Below, piece by piece: positions 23,509 to 35,143 of a stretch of DNA of 35,732 nt. The notes beneath the pieces were generated by a model that was not told the DNA's origin, did not search any database, and saw only the letters and a program-made list of their open reading frames with translations. Positions within the stretch are counted from its first letter, which is position 1. Every line of letters begins with the position of its first letter. Source of the stretch: Nitrospirota bacterium. Its GTDB lineage: Bacteria > Nitrospirota > Nitrospiria > Nitrospirales > UBA8639. The stretch is from NCBI GenBank assembly GCA_003696975.1, contig RFGT01000182.1:1-35732 (forward strand), written 5' to 3'. Position numbers and translations under genes: made by a program.

Positions 23509-24306
23509 TTATCTCCGCGCCATCATGGTTTCAATAGTACCATACCCGTGTACTCGCAACCAGACACACCCGAGTAAAACCCCAGCACAAACTCCCAGTG
23601 CCAGCACATCAACTCGAGTGAGAGTCGATGGCTCGATCACCCGTCTCCGCCGCCCAGGGCCAATGCCTTTGGACTCCAGGGCCATCGCGAGGAGATTTGT
23701 CCGGCGAAGCGTATGGCCAATCAGTGGGACTACCAGGAGAGAATAGCGCCGAATTTTTTGAACCATCGAGCCTGCGGCCATATCGAGCCCCCGAGAGCGC
23801 TGCGCTTGAAGAATTCCCGCAATACCCGTGATAAGTGTGGGGACCCACCGGAATGCCAGAGAAAGTGCAAACCCCACAGATTGAGGGACGCCCAATCGAG
23901 ACAGCGCATAGGTAAAATCCTCAATGGTGGTCGTGGACAGAAAGAGGATGCCGCTCATGACCATCGCGTTCAACCGAAGCCCCATGCCCACACCATGAAT
24001 GATGCCTTCCATGGTCACCACATACGTGCCTATCTTCACGATTGGTCGTTGTCCCTCGATAAAGATGGGCCACAACACCGCGCTATAAACAAACAACAGC
24101 ACCAGAAGCACCCACAGTCTCCGCACGTTGACCATGGCATGCGCGAGGGTAGTGCCAGCCAGAAGTCCCACTACGAGAACCGATAAATACCGGGGATCGG
24201 AAAACAACACCGCCATCGCAAAGGTGGTTAGAAGACCTGCGAACTTCGTGCGGGCGTCCAGCCGGTGAATCCAGGTCTCGGCGTCCAGATACAGCGAGTG
24301 TTTCAT
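23509..24306 (-). CDS. ecfT: ECF transporter transmembrane subunit EcfT
   Basis: This 265-residue membrane protein (about five or six hydrophobic segments) couples the ECF ATPases to the vitamin-binding S-component. The two coupling-helix motifs are present: AQRSRGLDM and ALESKGIGP. In the second, the usual Ala-Arg-Gly reads Ser-Lys-Gly. The start overlaps the stop of the S-component/ATPase fusion (ATGA, 24303-24306), so the two are co-translated. Confidence 0.9.
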   Translation of the reverse strand: MKHSLYLDAETWIHRLDARTKFAGLLTTFAMAVLFSDPRYLSVLVVGLLAGTTLAHAMVNVRRLWVLLVLLFVYSAVLWPIFIEGQRPIVKIGTYVVTMEGIIHGVGMGLRLNAMVMSGILFLSTTTIEDFTYALSRLGVPQSVGFALSLAFRWVPTLITGIAGILQAQRSRGLDMAAGSMVQKIRRYSLLVVPLIGHTLRRTNLLAMALESKGIGPGRRRRVIEPSTLTRVDVLALGVCAGVLLGCVWLRVHGYGTIETMMARR

Positions 24307-26753
24307 ACGATCTTCAGCGACGCTTGCACTTCTTCCACTGTGAGCAAGGTCACACCCCAGTGCTGGGCAAACCTCGTCACGGCCGGCAGTTCCAGTGAGG
24401 CGGCCGCCACGAAATCCGCATTGGCGAACACCTGCCGAGGCGGTCCGTCCATCATGAGCGTGCCATCCTGCATCACCAAGCAGCGTGAGGCATATCGGGC
24501 CACCAACTCCACGGTATGGGTGATCATGACAACAGTATGACCCTGTTGTTGGAGTCGCACCATGACCTCCAGCATGCAGTCGGTCTCTCGAGCATCCAGC
24601 CCGGTATTCGGCTCGTCAAAGATCAGAATCTTGGGGCGTGCCGCCAGCACCGAGGCCACGGCGACTCGCTGCCGTTCGCCTTTGGTCAAGGAAAAAGGAT
24701 CGCGCTGCTCAGTCCCTTCCAATCCAACGGCCTCGAGCGCTTCTCGCACCCGGTGCCGGCATTCCTCCGGAGGACATCCCACATTCTTCACGCCAAACGC
24801 AACTTCCTCCCATACGGTTTCCGCGAAAATTTGTTGATCGGGATTCTGAAACACATACCCAACCAGCGTCACCATACGCCGCATCTCGATTGTTCGCGTA
24901 TCATGGCCAAAAACGCGAACACTCCCTTCCCTGGGCATGAGCAACCCATTGAGCAGTTGAGCCAAGGTGCTCTTGCCTGAGCCATTCCGGCCCACGATGC
25001 CTACAAACTCGCCAGCACGGATGGTAACGGACACATGTTTGAGGGCAGGCCGATTCGCAGATTCATACCAATAGGATACGCGATCGAGTTCCAGCGCCGG
25101 AGTCGATGAGACAGCGCCGGCAAGGAACCGACGAGAGGCAGGAGCTTCGCGTATCATGGAAGGGACACACAGGGTCAAGCTATGACGGCGGGCAGCATCC
25201 ATGGCTTCTTCCAGCGTGATAGGAAGTTCTGGAAGCTTCAGGTGTTCGAAACACTGTGCGAAGGGAGTCGGACGAACACCAAACTGGAGGGCGATGTGGG
25301 GCTGGCGCAGGAACGCATCCGGCCTTCCCTCCCAGACGAGCATACCTTGATCCAGGAGACAGACTCGATCGGCCCACAACACAACTTCCGGGTCATGCTC
25401 AGTGAGCACGATTGTCACACCTCTCTGTCGCAGTTGATGCAGCAATTCAAGCAACTGCCTCCGGCCAACGGGATCCAAATCCGTCATCGGCTGATCCATC
25501 ACCACCACGGCCGGTTCTCGCACCAGCACGGATCCCACGACCAGGCGCTGGCGCTGTCCTCCGGAGAGCGACCCCGGATCGCGACGTTCCAACCCTGAGA
25601 GTCCAATCACCTCTAGGGTGCGGTGGATGCGGTCCTTCAGCGCGTGGATCTCTTCCTGACGCGCGTGTCCGCTCTCCAGGGGAACACGCAACTCAGCTTC
25701 CACGTTTGTGGAGATGAGTTGGGTATCGAAATCCTGAAAAACGACCCCGACGGTTTCCGCCAGCTTCCAGACAGGACAGTGAACCGTATCCACCCCCTTG
25801 ACTTGCACGCTGCCAGAAACTTCCCCCGGCCAAAAGTGTGGAACCAACCCATTCAGGGCATAACATAAGGTGGATTTGCCTGAGCCACTCCGCCCCATCA
25901 CCACTACCCATTCCCCGGGAAAGAGGTCGAGCGACACATGTGAAAGAGCGGGACGAGAAGATCCCGCGTAGTGAAACGTGAGATTGCGCACTGACAGAAG
26001 CGCCGACGACCGAGATCCCGGCTGTGAGGTCTGTTGGGAGAGCAGTGTCGCCCCTGGCGCCATCGGCGAATCCCTCTCCGGATCTCCCACTGGATCTCCT
26101 CCCCGATTTTTCACTCCCTCTAATTGAGGGGGCACAGGCCGGAGATCTCGATACAACAATCCCCACCGCTTGACCCGGGGATAGAGAAAGTACAAGAGCG
26201 GCGGGCCTAACAGTAAGCCCATAATCACGTTATTGAAAAAGATCGCTGGAGCCAGGACGGCAAAGGGGAGGAGGCCCAGTACCTCCACACCCCAGGCGAT
26301 CGTCGCAGCACAGGCCCACGAGGCCAGAAGACAGACGACGACAAACTCCACAGCTTGGCGCCACGACGTACAGCCAGGCTCACATCTTGAGGAGAGAGGA
26401 CCCATATTTCCCCACAAGAGATAGGGGATATATCCAAAAAGCATGTTGCCGGCAAATCCAAACACACTGGCCGGCCCCAACGTCCCAAAACAATCACCGA
26501 TGAGGTTCCCCAACCCCGCACCCCAGGCGGCCGCAGGGCCGAAGAGCAGGGACGTAACCAAGGGAATCGCGTTGGCTGGACGCAGCTCGGCAAACCCCGG
26601 AATCAGCGGAATGCCGACTTTGAATGGAATCAGAATCGCCGCATAGATCGCCGCGATTTGTGCGGTCAGGACAATCAGTCGCGTGTCGCGCCAGACATGG
26701 GAGAGTTCCGTTAGCCAACGGAGTGGTGACCATGGAGATATCTGAATCCACAT
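24303..26753 (-). CDS. ECF transporter fusion: S-component plus two ATPase domains in one chain
   Basis: This 816-residue protein contains three parts normally encoded apart. Residues 1-200 are a membrane S-component (about six segments, including LRPANAIPLVTSLLFGP and GNLIGDCFG). After a loose linker come ATPase 1 (Walker A GRSGSGKST 287-295, LSGGQ 396-400, Walker B VVVMDQPMTDLD) and ATPase 2 (GRNGSGKST 588-596, ILIFDEPNTGLD). Two oddities fall in one composite site: Gln421 replaces the catalytic Glu in ATPase 1, and ATPase 2 has LTKGE (689-693) for LSGGQ. The other site is intact. The substrate is unknown; ECF systems import vitamins or metal ions. ATG 26753 lies two bases after the nucleotidase stop; a TTG at 26759 is the alternative. 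Confidence 0.88.
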   Translation of the reverse strand: MWIQISPWSPLRWLTELSHVWRDTRLIVLTAQIAAIYAAILIPFKVGIPLIPGFAELRPANAIPLVTSLLFGPAAAWGAGLGNLIGDCFGTLGPASVFGFAGNMLFGYIPYLLWGNMGPLSSRCEPGCTSWRQAVEFVVVCLLASWACAATIAWGVEVLGLLPFAVLAPAIFFNNVIMGLLLGPPLLYFLYPRVKRWGLLYRDLRPVPPQLEGVKNRGGDPVGDPERDSPMAPGATLLSQQTSQPGSRSSALLSVRNLTFHYAGSSRPALSHVSLDLFPGEWVVVMGRSGSGKSTLCYALNGLVPHFWPGEVSGSVQVKGVDTVHCPVWKLAETVGVVFQDFDTQLISTNVEAELRVPLESGHARQEEIHALKDRIHRTLEVIGLSGLERRDPGSLSGGQRQRLVVGSVLVREPAVVVMDQPMTDLDPVGRRQLLELLHQLRQRGVTIVLTEHDPEVVLWADRVCLLDQGMLVWEGRPDAFLRQPHIALQFGVRPTPFAQCFEHLKLPELPITLEEAMDAARRHSLTLCVPSMIREAPASRRFLAGAVSSTPALELDRVSYWYESANRPALKHVSVTIRAGEFVGIVGRNGSGKSTLAQLLNGLLMPREGSVRVFGHDTRTIEMRRMVTLVGYVFQNPDQQIFAETVWEEVAFGVKNVGCPPEECRHRVREALEAVGLEGTEQRDPFSLTKGERQRVAVASVLAARPKILIFDEPNTGLDARETDCMLEVMVRLQQQGHTVVMITHTVELVARYASRCLVMQDGTLMMDGPPRQVFANADFVAAASLELPAVTRFAQHWGVTLLTVEEVQASLKIV

Positions 26754-26755
26754 TG

Positions 26756-28476
26756 TCAAGGGGCAAGAGGAGATAACGCGGCAGACGCCGAAACAATCTG
26801 AATTCGATGGTCACGAATGGCCGTGAGAGGGCCTCGTCTGAAAGCCTTAAGCAGGACATCGCGGATGGGAACCTGATGATCAATCCGCTGGCTGGCTTGC
26901 CTGAACATCGTGTAGCCATCGCCTCCGTCAGCCAGAAATGCATCGGTCACGATAAAATATCGTCCACTTGGATCAAGCGGCTTTCCCTTGACGGCGACCG
27001 CCTGAACCCGCGAGCCTGGAGGCATCGAGAGGTCATAGATTACCTGGAGGCCGGAAAGCTGAAGAAACCGTCCGGAGGCCTCAGGAAGAAATCGCGCACT
27101 GTTTTCTAGGGCAGCCAAAAGTTGCCGTCCTGTGATTCGCAGAGTCACCACTGATGAATCGAACGGCAAGGCTGACAAGACCTGGCCGAGCGTGACAGTC
27201 CCGGCTGGAATAGTAGCCCGAATCTGCCCGCTGTTGATCAGCGCGATATCCTGTGCGAATTCGCGGCACAACAAGTCCGCCAGCAGATTGCCGAAGTTGG
27301 TCTCCCTGGTTCGGACTGCAGCCCGTTCGCCCACGAGCGTGACGAGTGCTTGTCCAACCGGCTGAAGCGCCTGACGCGCAAATTGACGCCGGTACCGTTC
27401 CAACAGCGCTGCAACCTGAGGGTGAGAGGGAGGAACTTGGCCACCGGGAGATTGCGAGCCTTGGCACGGAGAATACGGCCGTGATCCACCAAGAGGTCCA
27501 GCCGGCCCAGTGTTCGGCCCTGACGGTGGGTCTTTACGAACACACGCCCGGGATCGGCAAGTTCCTGCACTGGGCGGTCCAGTTTGGGAGTCCACAGCCC
27601 ATCAAATCCTTCCGTATGTCCGCCGATGATGACATCAATCTCCGGAATATCTTCTAACAAGTCCAGGTCTTCGCGAGTATCTTGGTGGGTGAGTACCACC
27701 ACAAGATCCACCAGGCCGGCCTGTTTCCAGGCTCGGGCTTGAGCTTGAACCGTCTCCTGTGGATCACGTAAGGCCAGAACCTCGACCACCTCACGATTGA
27801 ACGTATCCGGGAAATTGCTGCGCCCGACCACACCGAGGAGCCCAATGGTCACTGATCCCACTTGAATGGTCGCAGTCCGCTGGCACGGCAGGGTGGCTCG
27901 GACACTCATCAGGTTCGTACAGAGAATGGGGAACTCGGCCCATTGGCGGAGTTGCCGTAGGTGTTCCAGGCCATAATCGAAGTCATGATTTCCAGCAACC
28001 ATAGCCTGGTATCCCAGGAGATTCATGGCCTTGATGTCCGGCTCACCTCGAAACCACGAAGAGAGAGGCGTCCCGACCAAGATATCTCCGGAATCCACAA
28101 GGAGCACATTGGAGGTCTCCTGCCGCACGCGGTCAACGACAGTCGCCCGCCTCGCGAATCCCCCTATATTAACCAGACCTGGCTGATCCAAAGGTAACGC
28201 GACCCCATGGTGTTCGCTGCTGTGCAAGATCGTGATCCATTCTTTTGCCCATGCCCACCTGGAAAATCCGCTGCTGAGGAGACCAACTCCTAGGATGGCC
28301 AAGAGGAGGAGACGTGAGCCTAACCGCAATGCCCCTCTCTTGCGCAGCCTGGTCGTAGAACTGGGGCCCCTGTTCCAATGAAGGCTCAACCGGCGTGGTC
28401 CGCGTAGGAGAGCAATCACACTACGGGATCGCTTGCCGGTCGAGTGCTCGTTGGATGCCGCCGTCAGCACAGGCAT
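26756..28476 (-). pseudogene. Exported 5'-nucleotidase (UshA/YfkN type) interrupted by a one-base frameshift
   Basis: Two overlapping frames make one protein of about 570 residues. The N-terminal frame (28476 to about 27447) has an Arg-rich start, a hydrophobic export segment (LGSRLLLLAILGVGLL) and the metallophosphatase motifs ILHSSEHHG, DSGDILVGTPLS, GNHDFDYG, LTHQD and GGHTEG. The C-terminal frame (about 27447 to 26756) has the substrate domain: TRETNFGNLLADLL, NSGQIRATIPAG and FLADGGDGYTMF. They join at RNLPV/GQVPPSHPQV if one G is restored near 27440-27450. This may be a true mutation or a sequence error, since both halves look well conserved. The start is uncertain. It lies 34 bases after egtB and ends two bases before the ECF fusion. 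Confidence 0.85.
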
Positions 28477-28510
28477 CCTCCCATCCCCCGGAGAAAAACA
28501 TCTCACCGAC

Positions 28511-29725
28511 CTAGCCGGGATGCACGCACCGAAAGCCTGCGTGAACATAGGGATAGTCCTGGCGAAACCAGTTTCGAAAGGATCGGCGCAGCAAATCTCG
28601 AGGGGTTGTGGGAGATGCGCCTTTCATCACGAAATGATCCTGATCGAAAAATCGCGCGGAGTATCCCGGATAGGTGGGGTAGGGCTCAAACCCTTCAAAC
28701 GGATGAAATGGCGTGGCTGTCCATTCCCATCCATTACCCACGAGTTGTGCTACGCCAAAGTCACTATCACCTGCGGGAGTGGCCGTCACGGGAATAGGAT
28801 CCCAATACGCGAAATGAAAATTTCCCCGTGATTCATCTGGAGGATCGTTCCCCCAGGGATAGGCCCGTTCATCTCCGTGGCGTGTGGCATAGGCCGCTCG
28901 GTGGAGCTGCGCTTCCGTCGGTAACGCCAGCCCCGCCCAATTCGCATACGCTTGGGCTTCCCGTTGGGACACATACACGGGGCAATGCGGCGGAAGAGGT
29001 ATCTCTCCAAACGTCGTGAGGAGAAACCACTGCCTACCTCGCCTTCTCCAAAATGGAGGGGGATTGGCGCCGTCTTCGACGAATTTCAGATATTGTTCGT
29101 TGGTCACCTTGTATTTGCTGATGGCAAAGGCCGGAACCTGCACGACATGGCGCTCAAATTCATTGTCCCACCCGAAGCCTTCCTCACGGGTGCGGCCCAG
29201 CGTTGCAGGCCCCTCGGGAATCTCAATCATGTGATGAATAGGTGGCGGAGCGGCTGGTAGTGGTCGAAGAGCCGGAGCTATCTTCATCGTGTTTGGCAGG
29301 CGATGAAGCAGATAGGCGGTTGTCTCCGCATGCATCCATCGATGCTCGATTGCCATATGGAGCACCTCTGGCGGTGCCTGGTCAAGCACGCGGTCGATTT
29401 CTCGCCGGACTTGTCCATTGTATTGGTAGACATCCTTGACCGCGGGCCAGTCTTGCGGGCGATCAGAAGACGCTTCTCCGACTGGAGGGTCGATGCCCGC
29501 TTCGAACAACTGGTCGAATTCTGGATGAAACGACGCTAATCCCAGAGTCCAACGGCAGATCTGATTCCAATCAAAAGCTTCTAAATGGCCTAGATAAAAG
29601 ATGAGTCGATGCCGCTCAGGAATGGGCCGTTCGTAAAGGGCATTCGGTTTGATCAATGAAAAGATGGCATCCGTACAGGCTCGGGCGGCGGTCAAAGCTG
29701 TACGCAATTCAACAGAAGCTGGCAT
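28511..29725 (-). CDS. egtB: EgtB-like sulfoxide synthase (DinB plus formylglycine-enzyme domains)
   Basis: This 404-residue non-heme iron enzyme is predicted to join a thiol to hercynine in ergothioneine synthesis. The N-terminal DinB-like four-helix part carries His47 (YLGHLEAF) and His128/His132 (IEHRWMHAE), matching in spacing the iron ligands His51, His134 and His138 of mycobacterial EgtB. Residues about 165-404 are the formylglycine-generating-enzyme-like domain (VPAFAISKYKVTNEQYLKF, GNGWEWTATPFHP, GFRCVHPG). It lacks that enzyme's role because of the DinB part. With no egtA or egtC here, cysteine or another sulfur donor may be used directly. The ATG at 29725 is chosen over 29731 because GGAG is then eight bases away. 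It is divergent from the transporter genes. Confidence 0.85.
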   Translation of the reverse strand: MPASVELRTALTAARACTDAIFSLIKPNALYERPIPERHRLIFYLGHLEAFDWNQICRWTLGLASFHPEFDQLFEAGIDPPVGEASSDRPQDWPAVKDVYQYNGQVRREIDRVLDQAPPEVLHMAIEHRWMHAETTAYLLHRLPNTMKIAPALRPLPAAPPPIHHMIEIPEGPATLGRTREEGFGWDNEFERHVVQVPAFAISKYKVTNEQYLKFVEDGANPPPFWRRRGRQWFLLTTFGEIPLPPHCPVYVSQREAQAYANWAGLALPTEAQLHRAAYATRHGDERAYPWGNDPPDESRGNFHFAYWDPIPVTATPAGDSDFGVAQLVGNGWEWTATPFHPFEGFEPYPTYPGYSARFFDQDHFVMKGASPTTPRDLLRRSFRNWFRQDYPYVHAGFRCVHPG

Positions 29726-29738
29726 GAGCATTTCTCCT

Positions 29739-29775
29739 TTACTGGTTCAAACGATTGATTACTAGCTCAAACGAT
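29739..29775 (-). repeat. Two tandem 17-bp repeats in the egtB leader
   Basis: The minus strand has ATCGTTTGAGCTAGTAA (29759-29775) and ATCGTTTGAACCAGTAA (29739-29755), identical at 15 of 17 positions with a 20-base period. The nearer copy runs into the egtB ribosome binding site. A two-turn period suggests two protein molecules bound on the same face of the DNA; translation control is another option. Confidence 0.5.
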
Positions 29776-29832
29776 GCGGTGTATCCACTGTCTCTCTTTC
29801 ACCATCTTCCGTATGAAGGACAAGGAGGATAG

Positions 29833-29858
29833 CATCCCTTGCGGGGATGTACTATAAC
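29833..29858 (+). promoter_or_regulatory. Palindrome next to a -10 box before the transporter operon
   Basis: CATCCC-ttgcg-GGGATG (29833-29849) is followed four bases later by TATAAC (29853-29858), a likely -10. No good -35 exists, and the palindrome fills the spacer where an activator or repressor could bind. The ATG of the ATPase gene lies about 55 bases downstream. Confidence 0.4.
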
Positions 29859-29911
29859 ACCCTGCACGCTTCAAGCAAAACTCAAGCCGTGGATCTTGAG
29901 GAGTATGATCG

Positions 29912-30658
29912 ATGTCCCTTCCCGCCTTGGACGTGATTGACGTCACCAAACGCTATGCCAACGGCGTGGTAGCCCTGCAGCACGTCTCACTCGCCGTGGC
30001 TCAAGGAGAAACCCTGGTCTTGATCGGCGAGAGCGGCTCGGGGAAGACAACGTTACTACGATTGTTTAATCGCATGGAACAGCCTACTACCGGTGTGGTT
30101 CGGATACAGGGACAATCTGTTGAGGACATGGATCCCATCACTCTACGACGCCATATCGGATACGTCCAGCAGGATGGTGGCTTACTCCCCCATTGGACAG
30201 TCCAGCACAATATCGGACTTGTCCCCACTCTCCTTCGCTGGCCCGCAGATCACATTTTTCAGCGGACCTCTACCCTCCTCGAATTGGTCAACTTATCCCC
30301 AAGCATCTACGCCGGCCGGTATCCCGCCGAACTATCCGGCGGGGAACGCCAGCGCGTGGCCTTCGCCCGCGCACTGGCCGCCGACCCGGACATTGTGTTG
30401 CTCGATGAACCATTCGGAGCACTCGATGCCATCACGCGCAATGAGTTGCAAGAACAATTTCTCAAGATCAAACACACCCTCCAAAAAACCATGGTGTTTG
30501 TCACGCATGACTTACATGAAGCTTTTCGCCTGGGTGATCGGATCGCCATTCTGCACGCGGGACAAGTCCGACAGGTGGACACCCCGCAAGCGCTCCTTGA
30601 GCACCCTGCCGATGCGTATGTTCGCACTTTGTTGGCCTATTATCGGAGGGAAGTATGA
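29912..30658 (+). CDS. ABC transporter ATPase of the betaine/ergothioneine uptake family (EgtV-like)
   Basis: This 248-residue cassette ATPase has GESGSGKTT, the Q-loop in IGYVQQDGGLLPHWTV, LSGGERQR, IVLLDEPFGALD and the switch His in VTHDLHEAF. It is closest to the OpuCA/ProV group but ends without the paired CBS domains that sense ionic strength in OpuA-type systems, which argues against classic osmoregulation. The next gene overlaps by ATGA (30655-30658) and provides the binding and membrane parts. GGAG lies eight bases before the ATG. Position between egtB and egtD suggests ergothioneine or its precursors as cargo; glycine betaine or choline remain possible. Confidence 0.92.
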   Translation: MSLPALDVIDVTKRYANGVVALQHVSLAVAQGETLVLIGESGSGKTTLLRLFNRMEQPTTGVVRIQGQSVEDMDPITLRRHIGYVQQDGGLLPHWTVQHNIGLVPTLLRWPADHIFQRTSTLLELVNLSPSIYAGRYPAELSGGERQRVAFARALAADPDIVLLDEPFGALDAITRNELQEQFLKIKHTLQKTMVFVTHDLHEAFRLGDRIAILHAGQVRQVDTPQALLEHPADAYVRTLLAYYRREV

Positions 30659-32241
30659 AGCCAAGACGCCATCTTGCGTTCGCTCTTGTCTTCATGGCGG
30701 TCTCCGGCGCTGGACTGCCCATGATGCAGGCACATGCGGAACCTCAGCCGACTCCCATCGTCATTGGATCAAAAAATTTTCTGGAAAGCCGCCTGCTTGC
30801 GGAGATCTTCGCCCAACTCATCGAAACTCATACGGCACTCCCCGTTCAGAGGCGGTTTGGCCTCGCGGGAACCCAACTCTGTTTCGAGGCCCTCAAACGA
30901 GGAGCCATCGATATGTATCCTGAATACACCGGGACGGGGCTGGTCAGCATTCTGGGGCTCCCTCCTCTTCCCAACCCCCGAGCAGTCCTGAATCGGGTCC
31001 GATCGGAATTCCTGCACCGCTGGAATCTATGGTGGCTCAGCCCGCTTGGATTTGAAAACGCTTATGCCCTGGCCGTACCGCGACGCCAGGCGGAAGCATT
31101 GGGCCTGCGAACGCTCTCCGATCTTGCGCGGGTTGCCCAGACTCTCACCGCAGGCTTCGGGTACGAATTTCTTCAGCGGCCCGACGGGCTTCCCGGCCTT
31201 CAGCGTCGCTATGGATTGACTTTTCAGCACGTGCGAGCCATGCAGCAGACCCTGAAATATCGTGCCGCCGCAGCCGGGAATATCGATGTGCTCGACGTCT
31301 ACACCACGGATGGCCGGCTGGCCGTGTACGACCTGGTTGTTCTGGAAGACGACAAGCGATTCTTTCCGCCGTATGAAGCCGCCGGAGTGATTCGAGGAGA
31401 GACGCTGGATCGACATCCAGAACTCGGGAAGGTGTTGGGACTCCTGACTAATGCCTTTGATGTCGCCACCATGCGCCGCTTGAACTTTCGACTCCAAGAA
31501 AAAGGAGAATCCGTGGAACAGGTCGCTCGAGATGCGCTCCGGTCCCTGGGACTTGAATCATCCACAACCCCTGCCGTCACCCCCAACACCTCTTCCTCTC
31601 CTGACAAATCTCTTGTCCCGTATATGTGGGCAAACCGGGAGCGCTTGGTTATACGGGCGGGGGAACATCTCGGCCTGACGGGAATTGCGCTAATCCTGGG
31701 AATTGTGGTGGCCGTCCCCCTCGGGTTGTTGCTCGAACGGCGGCGCACTGTCGCCGAACCGGTCATCCGGATAATCGGCACAGTCCAAACCATTCCCTCC
31801 ATCGCGCTCTTGGCGTTCATGATCCCCATATTCGGCGTGGGCGCCCTACCGGCGATTTTGGCCCTCTGGATGTATTCGCTCTTCCCCATCGTCCGCAATA
31901 CCTACTCGGGATTGCGCGATGCTGCCCCGGCCGCCGTGGAAGCGGCACGTGCTCTCGGCATGACGGAATGGCAACTGCTCTGGTGGGTGCGATTCCCATT
32001 GGCCGCACCGGTCATGATGGCGGGCGTGCGGACTTCCGCTGTGATCACCGTGGGCACCGCAACTCTGGCGGCATTTATTGGGGCAGGCGGACTTGGGGTC
32101 CCCATTGTCTCTGGATTACAAATGGCCAATACCACAATCGTGCTCTCGGGAGCACTACCTGCCGCACTCTTGGCTCTAGCCGTGGATGGAATATTGGGGC
32201 TTGTCGAGCGATGGATTCGCCCTCCCGGTCTCCCGCCATGA
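30655..32241 (+). CDS. Substrate-binding protein fused to permease (EgtU/OpuC-like, binding domain first)
   Basis: This 528-residue protein starts with a signal sequence (HLAFALVFMAVSGAGLP), then a periplasmic quaternary-amine-type binding domain at about 32-295: IVIGSKNFLESRLLAEI, DMYPEYTGTGLVSILG, VLDVYTTDGRL and LEDDKRFFPPYEAAG. After a Ser/Pro/Thr linker comes a permease of about six membrane segments (325-520) with the coupling loop EAARALGMTEWQLLWWVRFPLA. Known EgtU proteins of Streptococcus and Helicobacter have, as I recall, the permease first; here the order is reversed. It overlaps the ATPase gene by four bases. Substrate specificity cannot be read with certainty from sequence. Confidence 0.9.
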   Translation: MKPRRHLAFALVFMAVSGAGLPMMQAHAEPQPTPIVIGSKNFLESRLLAEIFAQLIETHTALPVQRRFGLAGTQLCFEALKRGAIDMYPEYTGTGLVSILGLPPLPNPRAVLNRVRSEFLHRWNLWWLSPLGFENAYALAVPRRQAEALGLRTLSDLARVAQTLTAGFGYEFLQRPDGLPGLQRRYGLTFQHVRAMQQTLKYRAAAAGNIDVLDVYTTDGRLAVYDLVVLEDDKRFFPPYEAAGVIRGETLDRHPELGKVLGLLTNAFDVATMRRLNFRLQEKGESVEQVARDALRSLGLESSTTPAVTPNTSSSPDKSLVPYMWANRERLVIRAGEHLGLTGIALILGIVVAVPLGLLLERRRTVAEPVIRIIGTVQTIPSIALLAFMIPIFGVGALPAILALWMYSLFPIVRNTYSGLRDAAPAAVEAARALGMTEWQLLWWVRFPLAAPVMMAGVRTSAVITVGTATLAAFIGAGGLGVPIVSGLQMANTTIVLSGALPAALLALAVDGILGLVERWIRPPGLPP

Positions 32242-32271
32242 GTCTCGCCGCGCTCACATGATCAAGACCCC

Positions 32272-32286
32272 TCGGGAGAGTCCCGA
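32272..32286 (+). other. Small perfect hairpin after the transporter operon
   Basis: TCGGGA-gag-TCCCGA forms a 6-bp stem with a 3-base loop about 30 bases after the permease stop. There is no T-run, so it is at best a 3'-end stabilising structure or a factor-dependent end. Confidence 0.35.
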
Positions 32287-32398
32287 TACAGGAATACATC
32301 GTGGTTTATCATGGAGATCAGTGTCTTAGCCTTATGAGGTCTCATTGGTTTGGTATTGGCTTGCACGCATGTTCCTTGTATGAGCAGGCACAAGTCGC

Positions 32399-32427
32399 TT
32401 GCCGAATCCTGACAATCTCTCTATAAA
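32399..32427 (+). promoter_or_regulatory. Sigma-70 promoter of egtD
   Basis: TTGCCG (32399-32404) and TATAAA (32422-32427) have 17 bases between them, with egtD starting about 98 bases further on. Just downstream, CAGCGCGA occurs twice (32445-32452 and 32459-32466), a possible regulator site. This suggests egtD can be transcribed apart from the transporter genes. Confidence 0.55.
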
Positions 32428-32524
32428 GTATGTCCTTGCTCCCACAGCGCGAATAATGCAGCGCGAGCGCAATCAAACCGGGACGTGAAACACGCAGATA
32501 ATCACCGAGGATGACGAGAGCAGC

Positions 32525-33505
32525 ATGACCCCTGACCATCCCCGCATCAGGATTGACGTCCATGGCAATGGCGGCACATCCGAGGAATGTCTCGAAGAGA
32601 TTCGTAAGGCCTTGCTTTCCTCGCCGCGTCGGCTACCCACTAAATACCTCTATGACGATCAAGGATCCGCGCTCTTTGAACATATCTGCCAGCTTCCGGA
32701 ATACTATCAAACGCGGACCGAGCGCCAAATTCTTGCCAAGTCGGCCGATGAGATCGTGGCCCACACCCGGGCTCGGGAACTCGTGGAGCTTGGCTCCGGT
32801 GCGGCGACCAAGACTCGATTGCTCCTCAACGCCATGGCCCGAGCCAATCAGCTTCATCGGTACATCCCCTTTGATGTGAGCGAAGGAATCGTCCGGCGAG
32901 TGGCGCAAGAATTGATCCAAGAATATGAAAGCTTGGAGGTCTATGGCGTCGTCGGGGACTTTCTCACCCACCTCGAACACATTCCACCGGGCGGACGGCG
33001 ACTTGTCGCGTTCCTTGGGGGCACCATTGGCAACCTCCAGCCCGAGGAAGCACAAGCCTTCTTGCGATCCGTCCACCAGGAAATGGCTCCCGGCGATTTT
33101 TTTCTTCTTGGAGTTCAGCTTATTACCGACACAGGCCGGCTGGAAGCCGCTTACAATGATCGAGCGGGCGTGACAGCCGCCTTCAACCAGAACATCCTGC
33201 GGGTGATGCGTGCAGTGGCGGGAGCAGACTTTCATCCTGAGCAATTTGCCCATGTGGCTCGCTATAATGCTCGACAACACCGGATTGAAATGTCTCTCCG
33301 TTCTCTCCGCGACCAGGATGTCCGCCTCACTGAGTTAGATTTGACCATTCACTTTGCGCGCGGGGAAGAAATCCTCACAGAAATCAGCACCAAGTATAAC
33401 CGCCACCACGTCGAAGCCTTGCTCCAGTCTGCGGGCTTTGTGCCGGTTGCCTGGCATACGGATCCCGAACATCTGCACGGACTTGCCCTGGCGAGAAAAC
33501 CGTGA
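32525..33505 (+). CDS. egtD: L-histidine N-alpha-methyltransferase (trimethylhistidine/hercynine synthase)
   Basis: This 326-residue SAM-dependent enzyme methylates histidine three times to hercynine, the first step of ergothioneine synthesis. It has the family start PTKYLYDDQGSALFEHI and LPEYYQTRTE, the SAM loop ELGSGAATKTRLLL and FDVSEGIV. Residues Tyr43, Tyr60, Asn170, Tyr210, Glu286 and Ser288 fall at a constant offset of +4 from Tyr39, Tyr56, Asn166, Tyr206, Glu282 and Ser284 of Mycobacterium smegmatis EgtD, which bind histidine. The TEIS motif supports histidine as substrate over related amines. GAGAG lies four bases before the ATG. The EgtE-like gene follows after 46 bases. Confidence 0.93.
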   Translation: MTPDHPRIRIDVHGNGGTSEECLEEIRKALLSSPRRLPTKYLYDDQGSALFEHICQLPEYYQTRTERQILAKSADEIVAHTRARELVELGSGAATKTRLLLNAMARANQLHRYIPFDVSEGIVRRVAQELIQEYESLEVYGVVGDFLTHLEHIPPGGRRLVAFLGGTIGNLQPEEAQAFLRSVHQEMAPGDFFLLGVQLITDTGRLEAAYNDRAGVTAAFNQNILRVMRAVAGADFHPEQFAHVARYNARQHRIEMSLRSLRDQDVRLTELDLTIHFARGEEILTEISTKYNRHHVEALLQSAGFVPVAWHTDPEHLHGLALARKP

Positions 33506-33551
33506 AAGGTGCAAAGCCGAAGTCTGGTCAGTTCAACCTGCCTCCGACCCA

Positions 33552-34673
33552 ATGAATCAGCGGCCTTCTACGATCTATCTCAACTATGCAGCCCTGTGCC
33601 CTCCTCGCCCAGAAGTTGAGCAGGAAATGGCACGAACCTTGGCCGAGCTCGGGCAGCGTCTGTACTCTGAAGCCGGGGTCCACTGGTATCGCCAATGCTT
33701 GAAGGACAGCCGGCGTACAGTCGCTGAGGCGTTTCATATCCCCGACTCAGCCACCATTGCCTTCACCGCCAATGCCTCACTCGCTCATTACTTGGCGCTG
33801 TCAGCCATCCATTGGCAACCTGGAGATGTTCTTGTCACCTCGACCCATGAAAATCCCTCAATTATTCGACAACTCCATACCCTCACCCGACGCGGGGTGA
33901 AAGTCATGGACGTGCATCCTATCACCCCCTCTCACCTTCTCACGGCTCTTGAGAGCCTGGCATCGGCACACCCAATCAAGGCCGTGGTGATGAGTCATGT
34001 CTCGCATGTGGATGGACGCCTCTTTCCCATTTCAGACATCAGCGCGCTTGCGCGAGCGAACGGCTTCCTTTTCCTCGTCGATGGCGCACAGGCGGCAGGG
34101 CACATTCCTGTGGATGTGGACCAGCTTGGCTGCGATAGCTACTTTTTCCCGGGACACAAGTGGTGCCGCGGGCCCTTGGGAACCGGCGTGCTCATTGTGA
34201 GCGACCAGTTCTGCGAAGTTGCCCCAGGCATTCAAATGCCACAATCCGATTTGTCCGACCCTCGAGCATCCCTTTTCGAGGTGGGCACCCAGAATATCGG
34301 TCTCATTGCAGGCTTGGCTCGAGCATGCGCGCTGGCCCAGGAGTCAGTACAGGCTCAGCAGGAGCCGATGGAGTCCCGGCGTTCTCTCGTCGCCACGCGC
34401 TTGCACCGGGAGTCAACCGTGGAAATCATGGAGTGGGAAGGGCCGCATGCACCGGGAATCGTCACGTTCCGGAGCCGGAGACCTGTGGAGACTCGGCACC
34501 TTGCAAGCACTCTGGAGGCCGAGTGGGGGATCGTCGTCAAGGCGTTTCCTAAGCCTTCTTCCGCCTGGAGCCATTCAACTTTTCGACTATCGTGGCTCGA
34601 CACAACGCCGACCGAGGAACTCTTGTGGGCTCTCGATCATATCTGCGCGGTGATTGCCCAGATGTCATCTTAG
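33552..34673 (+). CDS. Class V PLP enzyme, EgtE-like C-S lyase candidate
   Basis: This 373-residue class V aminotransferase-fold protein has the PLP Lys203 in FFPGHKWCRGPLGTG, the cofactor Asp in FLVDGAQAAGH, and SHVSHVDGRLFPI before it. It starts with INxA-type residues YLNYAALCPPRP. In the ergothioneine pathway EgtE, of this fold, cleaves hercynylcysteine sulfoxide to ergothioneine. Position directly after egtD makes that role likely, but sequence alone cannot separate EgtE from cysteine desulfurases or isopenicillin epimerase-like enzymes. ATG 33552 is chosen; the longer frame to 33354 lies within egtD. The ribosome binding site is weak, so coupling to egtD is likely. Confidence 0.82.
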   Translation: MNQRPSTIYLNYAALCPPRPEVEQEMARTLAELGQRLYSEAGVHWYRQCLKDSRRTVAEAFHIPDSATIAFTANASLAHYLALSAIHWQPGDVLVTSTHENPSIIRQLHTLTRRGVKVMDVHPITPSHLLTALESLASAHPIKAVVMSHVSHVDGRLFPISDISALARANGFLFLVDGAQAAGHIPVDVDQLGCDSYFFPGHKWCRGPLGTGVLIVSDQFCEVAPGIQMPQSDLSDPRASLFEVGTQNIGLIAGLARACALAQESVQAQQEPMESRRSLVATRLHRESTVEIMEWEGPHAPGIVTFRSRRPVETRHLASTLEAEWGIVVKAFPKPSSAWSHSTFRLSWLDTTPTEELLWALDHICAVIAQMSS

Positions 34674-34726: not shown

Positions 34727-35143
34727 TTATTCACCGGCTTGAAGATAGCCGCGTAACACATCCCTCCGCGCTACGATCCCAATCAGTTTTCCCGTGGCAT
34801 CAACAACAGGGACACGAATGAGGTGGTTGTTTTGGAGCACATCGATGAGCGTCACGAGATCCATGTTTTGCGTGGCGGAAACAGGACGGCATGACATAAT
34901 CTCTCCCGCTGTCACCTCTTGGAGCTTTCTTCCTTGCCTGAGGGCCTTGAGCAGATCGAATTCCGAGACAATGCCGACCAACCGTCCCGTCTCATCGACA
35001 ATGGGCACCGAGCCAAATCCTTCCATCATATAGGAGGCCAGCATCTCGGCCGAGGTATCTTTCCGGCCTGACTGCACATTCTTTTCCATCACCTGTCCCA
35101 CTGTCATCCGGCCGAACTTCGTCTCGCGCGGATTTGCTCTCAT
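34727..35143 (-). CDS. Protein with two CBS domains
   Basis: This 138-residue protein is just a pair of CBS domains (a Bateman module). Domain 1 runs from VGQVMEKNV to VGIVSEFDLLKAL, domain 2 from AGEIMSCRPV to IGIVARRDVLRGYL. Such modules bind adenosine nucleotides or SAM and signal energy or redox state; partner and ligand are unknown here. It is convergent with the EgtE-like gene. A purine-rich AAGGAG lies about 12 bases upstream with GAGG nearer the ATG. Confidence 0.9.
   Translation of the reverse strand: MRANPRETKFGRMTVGQVMEKNVQSGRKDTSAEMLASYMMEGFGSVPIVDETGRLVGIVSEFDLLKALRQGRKLQEVTAGEIMSCRPVSATQNMDLVTLIDVLQNNHLIRVPVVDATGKLIGIVARRDVLRGYLQAGE

Follow-up and report, generated by a model that had tools for sequence, protein, structure and literature searches.

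Importers of ergothioneine have been described in bacteria unable to make the compound, and accounts of known producers usually include no dedicated importer. The locus described here raises the question of what a transporter does among the genes for ergothioneine synthesis. It lies in a stretch of 35,732 nucleotides, referred to below as the window, which is contig RFGT01000182.1 of assembly GCA_003696975.1, from a genome of 2.77 Mb in 273 contigs (G000) belonging to the order Nitrospirales, family UBA8639. In the window, an egtB-like gene is divergent from genes encoding an ATP-binding cassette (ABC) ATPase, a fusion of solute-binding protein (SBP) and permease, the histidine methyltransferase EgtD, and a pyridoxal phosphate (PLP) enzyme. 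Judged from sequence comparison, the transporter is probably an importer of a histidine betaine, either ergothioneine or its precursor hercynine, within the synthesis locus of a producer, with ergothioneine as the likelier ligand. The five genes had been called in an initial annotation of this DNA, and the positions and strands of all five were confirmed, with open reading frames and Pfam domains in agreement. The features of the locus are as follows:

28511-29731, minus strand: egtB-like sulfoxide synthase, 406 amino acids, with iron-ligand candidates H49, H130, and H134 (Pfam, NCBIfam, PDB relatives)
29732-29911, no strand: divergent intergenic spacer of 180 bp between egtB and the transporter operon; the divergent arrangement is kept in most UBA8639 genomes
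29912-30658, plus strand: ABC ATPase of the ProV/OpuCA type, 248 amino acids, without C-terminal CBS domains (Pfam ABC_tran, NCBIfam)
30655-32241, plus strand: SBP-permease fusion, 528 amino acids (OpuAC and BPD_transp_1), with the SBP at about residues 34-300 and the permease at about 325-523
30772-31374 (residues 40-240), plus strand: codons of the candidate SBP ligand pocket, K40, N41, F42, Y91, T94, F133, N135, Y137, E171, R175, Y216, and Y240 (pocket alignment)
32525-33505, plus strand: egtD, histidine N-alpha-trimethyltransferase forming hercynine (TIGR03438, match to 4uy6, pocket residues)
33552-34673, plus strand: class-V PLP enzyme, 373 amino acids from the ATG at 33552, a candidate for the C-S lyase step assigned to EgtE (K203, D177, Q180, R345; Pfam)

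The identification of EgtD from its sequence is secure. The protein passed the NCBIfam equivalog model TIGR03438 (354.8 bits, cut-off 290.9), carried the Pfam domain Methyltransf_33, and aligned with M. smegmatis EgtD (4uy6) over 305 residues without gaps at 293 bits. The histidine-binding residues had been said to lie at a constant offset from the mycobacterial enzyme, and this was borne out at the seven positions checked, which we take to be Y39, Y56, N166, Y206, M252, E282, and S284 in M. smegmatis EgtD; all seven were identical at an offset of +4. The genome of the window holds a single copy of EgtD.

The pairing of transporter and synthesis genes was then followed through related genomes, where f1 denotes UBA8639, f2, f3, and f4 denote other Nitrospirales families, and G- and L-numbers denote genomes and loci. 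Most UBA8639 genomes keep egtB divergent from the series ATPase, fusion, egtD, and PLP gene. The transporter was located within 3 kb of egtB in 21 of the 25 UBA8639-type egtB loci, which were found by sequence, and in 28 of 55 other loci, several of the remainder being short contigs. Where the cluster has split, the transporter remains with one partner: with egtB in G001 and G005, where egtD lies elsewhere, and with egtD and the PLP gene in G008, G017, and G020, whose egtB lies elsewhere. Acidobacteriota and other families of Nitrospirales have an EgtD of a different lineage, with about 40% identity to that of the window; their EgtB is about 50-66% identical, and permease and SBP are separate units. 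The linked genes also occur in rearranged orders, namely egtB-egtD-ATPase-permease-SBP, ATPase-permease-SBP-egtB-egtD, a divergent order, and one with egtB-egtD convergent with the transporter; a fifth, ATPase-(SBP-permease fusion)-egtB-egtD, was found in Acidobacteriota (G249, G140, G336, G290, G322). In three further genomes (G306, G351, G359) the genes beside the transporter are egtD and one for an EgtB that is more remote (26-33% identical).

A loss of gene order in relatives, named in the initial annotation as a ground for rejecting its reading, was not observed, since the order is kept and the linkage has been repeatedly rearranged in two phyla. The arrangement had also been called unusual, which proved wrong, as it is normal for UBA8639 and frequent among Acidobacteriota. 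The core of the earlier proposal, that a producer carries a dedicated transporter among its synthesis genes, finds strong support in this linkage and in co-occurrence. It needs correcting in that the transporter is not an EgtU by the published determinants, the arrangement is not rare, the EgtE label is a guess from position, and the EgtB is divergent. A chance neighbourhood was ruled out by gene order kept far beyond chance in Nitrospirales and Acidobacteriota.

The co-occurrence that the initial annotation had proposed to look for was found in related genomes. Among 98 Nitrospirales genomes, 53 had both this EgtB and the transporter, 7 had the transporter only, 38 had neither, and none had EgtB only (Fisher p ~2e-20), so that the transporter was present in 53 of 53 genomes with this EgtB. 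Of the seven with the transporter only, three were incomplete genomes, and the other four, all of family f4, had a different transporter lineage (36-42% identical). In family f3, EgtB was present in 3 of 37 genomes; these three also have EgtD and are the only ones with the transporter (p ~1e-4). A general osmolyte system of Nitrospirales was ruled out by the absence of the transporter from the EgtB-less members of f3. In a random even draw of 247 Acidobacteriota genomes, EgtD was found in 92, the SBP in 91, and both in 71 (odds ratio 23), and the two genes lay within 4 kb of each other in 14 genomes, as against 0.13 expected.

The transporter itself is, by its sequence features, a CBS-less ATPase with an SBP/permease fusion of the ProX/OpuC/EgtU class, and the genome encodes no OpuAC protein besides the fusion. 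Its SBP domain is nearest to the F-III betaine-binding proteins, among them EgtUC. The SBP model matched ergothioneine-bound pneumococcal EgtUC with a template modeling score (TM) of about 0.88, the best natural match after engineered sensors, and the F-III fold match to EgtU structures reached a TM of 0.89. The full-length model of the fusion was of moderate quality (predicted local distance difference test score 67), and its permease half was not used. Helicobacter pylori is not known as an ergothioneine producer. For the lineage with separate genes, referred to below as the split lineage, the best natural match of the SBP model was H. pylori EgtU (PDB 8dp6, 8dp7), an ergothioneine binder outside the SpEgtU subgroup, with a TM of 0.90 to the ergothioneine-bound form.

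For the ligand pocket, the EgtU residue positions published in PMC9732360 were mapped onto the window SBP by motif. The aromatic cage of EgtU (N339, Y341, Y419, Y443) is kept as N135, Y137, Y216, and Y240, and the carboxylate set K242, T296, and R379 together with E375 as K40, T94, R175, and E171; the listed pocket residues are invariant across the UBA8639 alignment. Because of this cage and the K/T/R set, the ligand would be a carboxylated trimethylammonium compound. The window pocket should thus hold a trimethylammonium carboxylate, and sequence alone cannot separate glycine betaine, hercynine, and ergothioneine. In the split lineage, the pocket carries F at EgtU position 341 and N, rarely S, at 419, and both are conserved. 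Since the system has a binding protein, the direction of transport would be import.

Compared with EgtU (EgtUABC of S. pneumoniae and other Firmicutes), the window SBP shares the F-III fold, the N/Y/Y/Y cage, and the K/T/R and E set. However, the EgtU residues G244, F293, and Y337, the hallmark of the SpEgtU subgroup (PMC9732360), are not kept, and the fusion has the SBP first and the permease second, the reverse of EgtU. Consequently, the assignment to the EgtUV family made in the initial annotation holds for the broad F-III family only, and the transporter is not filed as EgtU, although it may work like one. The EgtU order, permease then SBP, is present in some Acidobacteriota relatives (G130, G318, G196). 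The systems also differ in setting, as EgtU has been described as an import system of cells unable to make ergothioneine (PMC9732360), whereas the window transporter lies inside a synthesis locus. In this sense the widespread arrangement is a variant of the known EgtU-type import, here apparently placed within a synthesis locus. No published description of an importer beside egtB or egtD, or in an ergothioneine synthesis locus, was found in a literature search that was incomplete.

The following pathway is proposed. EgtD would trimethylate histidine to hercynine, the EgtB-like iron enzyme would couple the sulfur of cysteine to hercynine, and the PLP enzyme may cleave the resulting sulfoxide to release ergothioneine. 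The ATPase and the SBP/permease fusion would together take up a histidine betaine from the periplasm, as a dedicated importer of high affinity. If the ligand is ergothioneine, import could bring back product that has leaked out or scavenge it from neighbouring cells; a supply of hercynine as precursor would be less likely. Since the pairing recurs in related and distant bacteria with several importers, the hosts probably take up ergothioneine or its precursor as well as making it.

Several points weigh against import of a histidine betaine. In the window SBP and in all intact UBA8639 sequences, G244, F293, and Y337 of EgtU are replaced by F42, Y91, and F133, and the substitution G244F lowers the affinity of SpEgtUC about 100-fold (PMC9732360). 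According to the description in the same paper, the pocket residues of the window follow the pattern of AfProX, a glycine-betaine protein. Of the 247 Acidobacteriota genomes, 20 encode an SBP of this kind and lack the searched EgtD, so that the SBP family is not confined to ergothioneine. A close homologue of the fusion, carried by a Gemmatirosa plasmid, is not accompanied by egt genes. The role of the PLP enzyme in the pathway is a positional guess. Finally, the co-occurrence statistics ignore shared ancestry, an objection to which the f3 case and the differing gene orders are the least open.

The best surviving alternative, which we regard as rather unlikely, is that the transporter imports hercynine and not ergothioneine, supplying EgtB with precursor from the environment. 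In G130, G318, and G196, a permease-SBP fusion follows egtD and no EgtB of the window's type was found within the 12 kb examined, so that the shared element there would be the chemistry of hercynine. The missing ergothioneine-specific residues of EgtU point the same way, as does a rhizobial relative of the split-lineage SBP that lies beside hutC and a HutH-type lyase gene, a context resembling that of histidine betaine. The good uptake of external hercynine by E. coli (PMC9516567) was also counted in favour. On the other hand, a cell with EgtD makes its own hercynine, and the ergothioneine-binding EgtU of H. pylori likewise lies outside the SpEgtU subgroup, so the missing determinants do not exclude ergothioneine.

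It is unlikely that the transporter is a general compatible-solute importer, with glycine betaine, proline betaine, or choline as ligand, and accompanies the egt genes because the two share a role in stress tolerance. The window clade has the ProX-type cage of four tyrosines with K, T, R, and E, which needs nothing beyond glycine betaine, and the osmoprotectant importers of the ProX/OpuC type (AfProX, OpuBC, OpuCC) share this type of cage and have F at the position of G244. Isolate names suggest that several close relatives of the window are marine or host-associated metagenome-assembled genomes (MAGs), and the 20 Acidobacteriota that encode an SBP homologue but lack the searched EgtD were likewise counted in favour. 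In contrast, all f3 genomes without EgtB lack the transporter, which accompanies this EgtB wherever the enzyme occurs in the Nitrospirales genomes. CBS domains on the ATPase are found in many osmoregulated systems. The ProX/OpuC comparison systems carry a CBS-bearing ATPase extension that the window ATPase lacks: none of the intact ATPases linked to egtB or egtD has such a C-terminal extension, whereas eight of nine unlinked ATPases carry 68-146 extra residues, with CBS domains in all four that were scanned. In addition, several transporter lineages are linked to egtB or egtD, and the reshaped cage of the split lineage, with F for Y341 and N or S for Y419, is conserved along with the linkage.

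The identity of the EgtB-like enzyme bears on a third alternative. It has the Pfam domain FGE-sulfatase (PF03781) and a DinB_2-like stretch that scored under the DinB_2 cut-off. All NCBIfam matches were under their cut-offs (given in brackets), with 223 bits for the OvoA N-terminal model (400), 200 for SenA (420), and 198 for EgtB (360). The best PDB relative was EgtB-IV (8vih, 183 bits), followed by OvoA, and among named genomes the best matches were Nitrospirales MAGs, including a UBA8639 genome, and then Acidobacteriota. The claim that the three iron-binding histidines are kept was upheld, as H49, H130, and H134 (H and HX3H; iron-binding candidates) are near-invariant among 110 relatives. 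The protein ends at 406 amino acids and lacks the C-terminal methyltransferase domain of OvoA, hence it is not a full OvoA. As far as these matches indicate, it is a divergent member on the OvoA/EgtB-IV side; the egtB label thus stands for the sulfoxide-synthase features, the three histidines and the FGE-like domain, and not for membership in the EgtB equivalog, whose cut-off it does not reach. Neither egtA nor egtC was seen among the neighbouring genes, and the direct sulfur donor would therefore probably be cysteine rather than gamma-glutamylcysteine. The locus thereby differs from mycobacterial egtABCDE, with which it shares EgtD orthology, an EgtB with three histidines, and a PLP enzyme in the EgtE position.

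Given the ranking of OvoA before SenA and EgtB, and of EgtB-IV and OvoA among the PDB relatives, the enzyme could make an ovothiol- or selenoneine-type product that the transporter imports. This is very unlikely, since EgtD, a true histidine trimethylase, adjoins the EgtB-like gene in most relatives, and the missing methyltransferase domain also argues against it. OvoA acts on unmethylated histidine, which counts against an ovothiol-type product as well. A purely inherited gene order without functional meaning is highly improbable: UBA8639 does keep a longer stretch that includes energy-coupling factor (ECF) transporter and 5'-nucleotidase genes beside egtB, but the linkage recurs with different EgtD lineages, transporter lineages, and gene orders and in a second phylum, and the genes stay paired after the cluster splits.

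A further question is how often the importer was recruited. Quick trees of the SBP and permease separated several transporter lineages, of which at least three lie next to egtB or egtD, as fusions or as separate genes and in several gene orders. The UBA8639 fusion, with the Gemmatirosa plasmid fusion as sister, forms one lineage; the split-gene lineage comprises Acidobacteriota, Nitrospirales f2 and f3, and a Synechocystis plasmid; a second fusion lineage contains Acidobacteriota (G249 and others) and f4; and G306 and G327 form a small fourth pair. The later Acidobacteriota lineages were placed by quick trees only. In approximately unbiased (AU) tests, the hypothesis of UBA8639 and the split lineage as one clade gave p = 0.051 for the SBP, 0.009 for the permease, and 0.19 for the ATPase, and it was not rejected when the Gemmatirosa fusion was allowed inside the clade. 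On these tests, the UBA8639 and split lineages may have been recruited together or separately.

A broader reading can be offered tentatively, as a possibility that we do not favour outright. Many ergothioneine producers of Nitrospirota and Acidobacteriota may run a closed cycle of synthesis and recapture, in which a dedicated ABC importer of ergothioneine or hercynine entered the egtB/egtD locus on several occasions from various ProX/OpuC-class lineages, and ergothioneine would be an extracellular or periplasmic shared good and not a purely internal thiol. That synthesis and import are paired repeatedly suggests loss of ergothioneine by producers, sharing of it, or competition for it; alternatively, hercynine may circulate among soil, sediment, and sponge microbes. 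If true, the sequence definition of ergothioneine transporters would widen beyond the EgtU signature. The two SBP types, one ProX-like and one with the reshaped F/N pocket, provide a concrete set for settling the ligand by simple binding assays.

Relatives of these transporters were also observed in other settings. The Synechocystis PCC 6714 plasmid pSYLB (L168:5013-6554) carries a split-lineage permease-SBP fusion with the same F/N pocket and no egt genes nearby. On a Rhizobium leguminosarum plasmid (L177:3303-5810), a 45% identical relative of the split-lineage SBP directly follows hutC and the histidine-ammonia-lyase-type gene, a context in which catabolism of histidine betaine or ergothioneine is possible. 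In family f4, where no genome has EgtB, G051 and G057 (L051, L052) keep an EgtD 61-63% identical to that of the window, and all four genomes carry the second fusion-type transporter away from EgtD.

The initial annotation had described the PLP enzyme as EgtE-like. A class-V PLP enzyme beside egtD was confirmed (Pfam Aminotran_5), and its gene usually adjoins egtD in UBA8639, whereas the identity with EgtE rests on position, the NCBIfam EgtE model giving 64 bits against a cut-off of 400. The PLP lysine K203 and D177, Q180, and R345 are near-invariant in relatives, and these residues are also common to the desulfurase superfamily. They may plausibly correspond to K203, D180, Q183, and R348 of MsEgtE. 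An anti-phage role was considered because of matches to SspA and DndA (about 105 bits), which were attributed to the generic desulfurase superfamily. The longest frame of the gene opens at a TTG at 33354, within egtD, and the ATG at 33552 is the likelier start.

The genes for the ATPase and the fusion overlap by 4 bases. The spacer at 29732-29911 is presumably a shared control region of egtB and the transporter operon; a consensus scan of it gave no sigma-70-like site. At L040 (G007), egtB, the ATPase gene, and the fusion gene are each broken up over several frames; egtD and the PLP gene there appear to be intact.

On the other side of egtB, the window holds a UshA/5'-nucleotidase-like gene (26756-28548, minus strand) that is frameshifted, with the metallophosphatase part and the C-terminal domain in separate frames. 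In seven relatives, the gene at the same place is a single open frame of 521-667 codons, and the frameshift is either decay or an assembly error. Next to it, at 23509-26759 on the minus strand, lies an ECF-type transporter with fused S-component/ATPases and a T-component. Both adjoin egtB in UBA8639 even after egtB has left the egtD cluster (L034, L037, L039, L049, L162-L167). Many UBA8639 genomes and f4 contain a second PF10017-like methyltransferase (L063-L073, e.g., L068:8803-9801, minus strand), 31-34% identical, with M252 replaced by S and mostly Y39 by F and no transporter beside the gene; it possibly makes another amino-acid betaine. Beyond the PLP gene and convergent to it, a stand-alone protein with two CBS domains is encoded at 34727-35143 on the minus strand and kept in several UBA8639 genomes, and it is conceivable that it acts as a regulatory partner of the CBS-less ATPase of the cluster.

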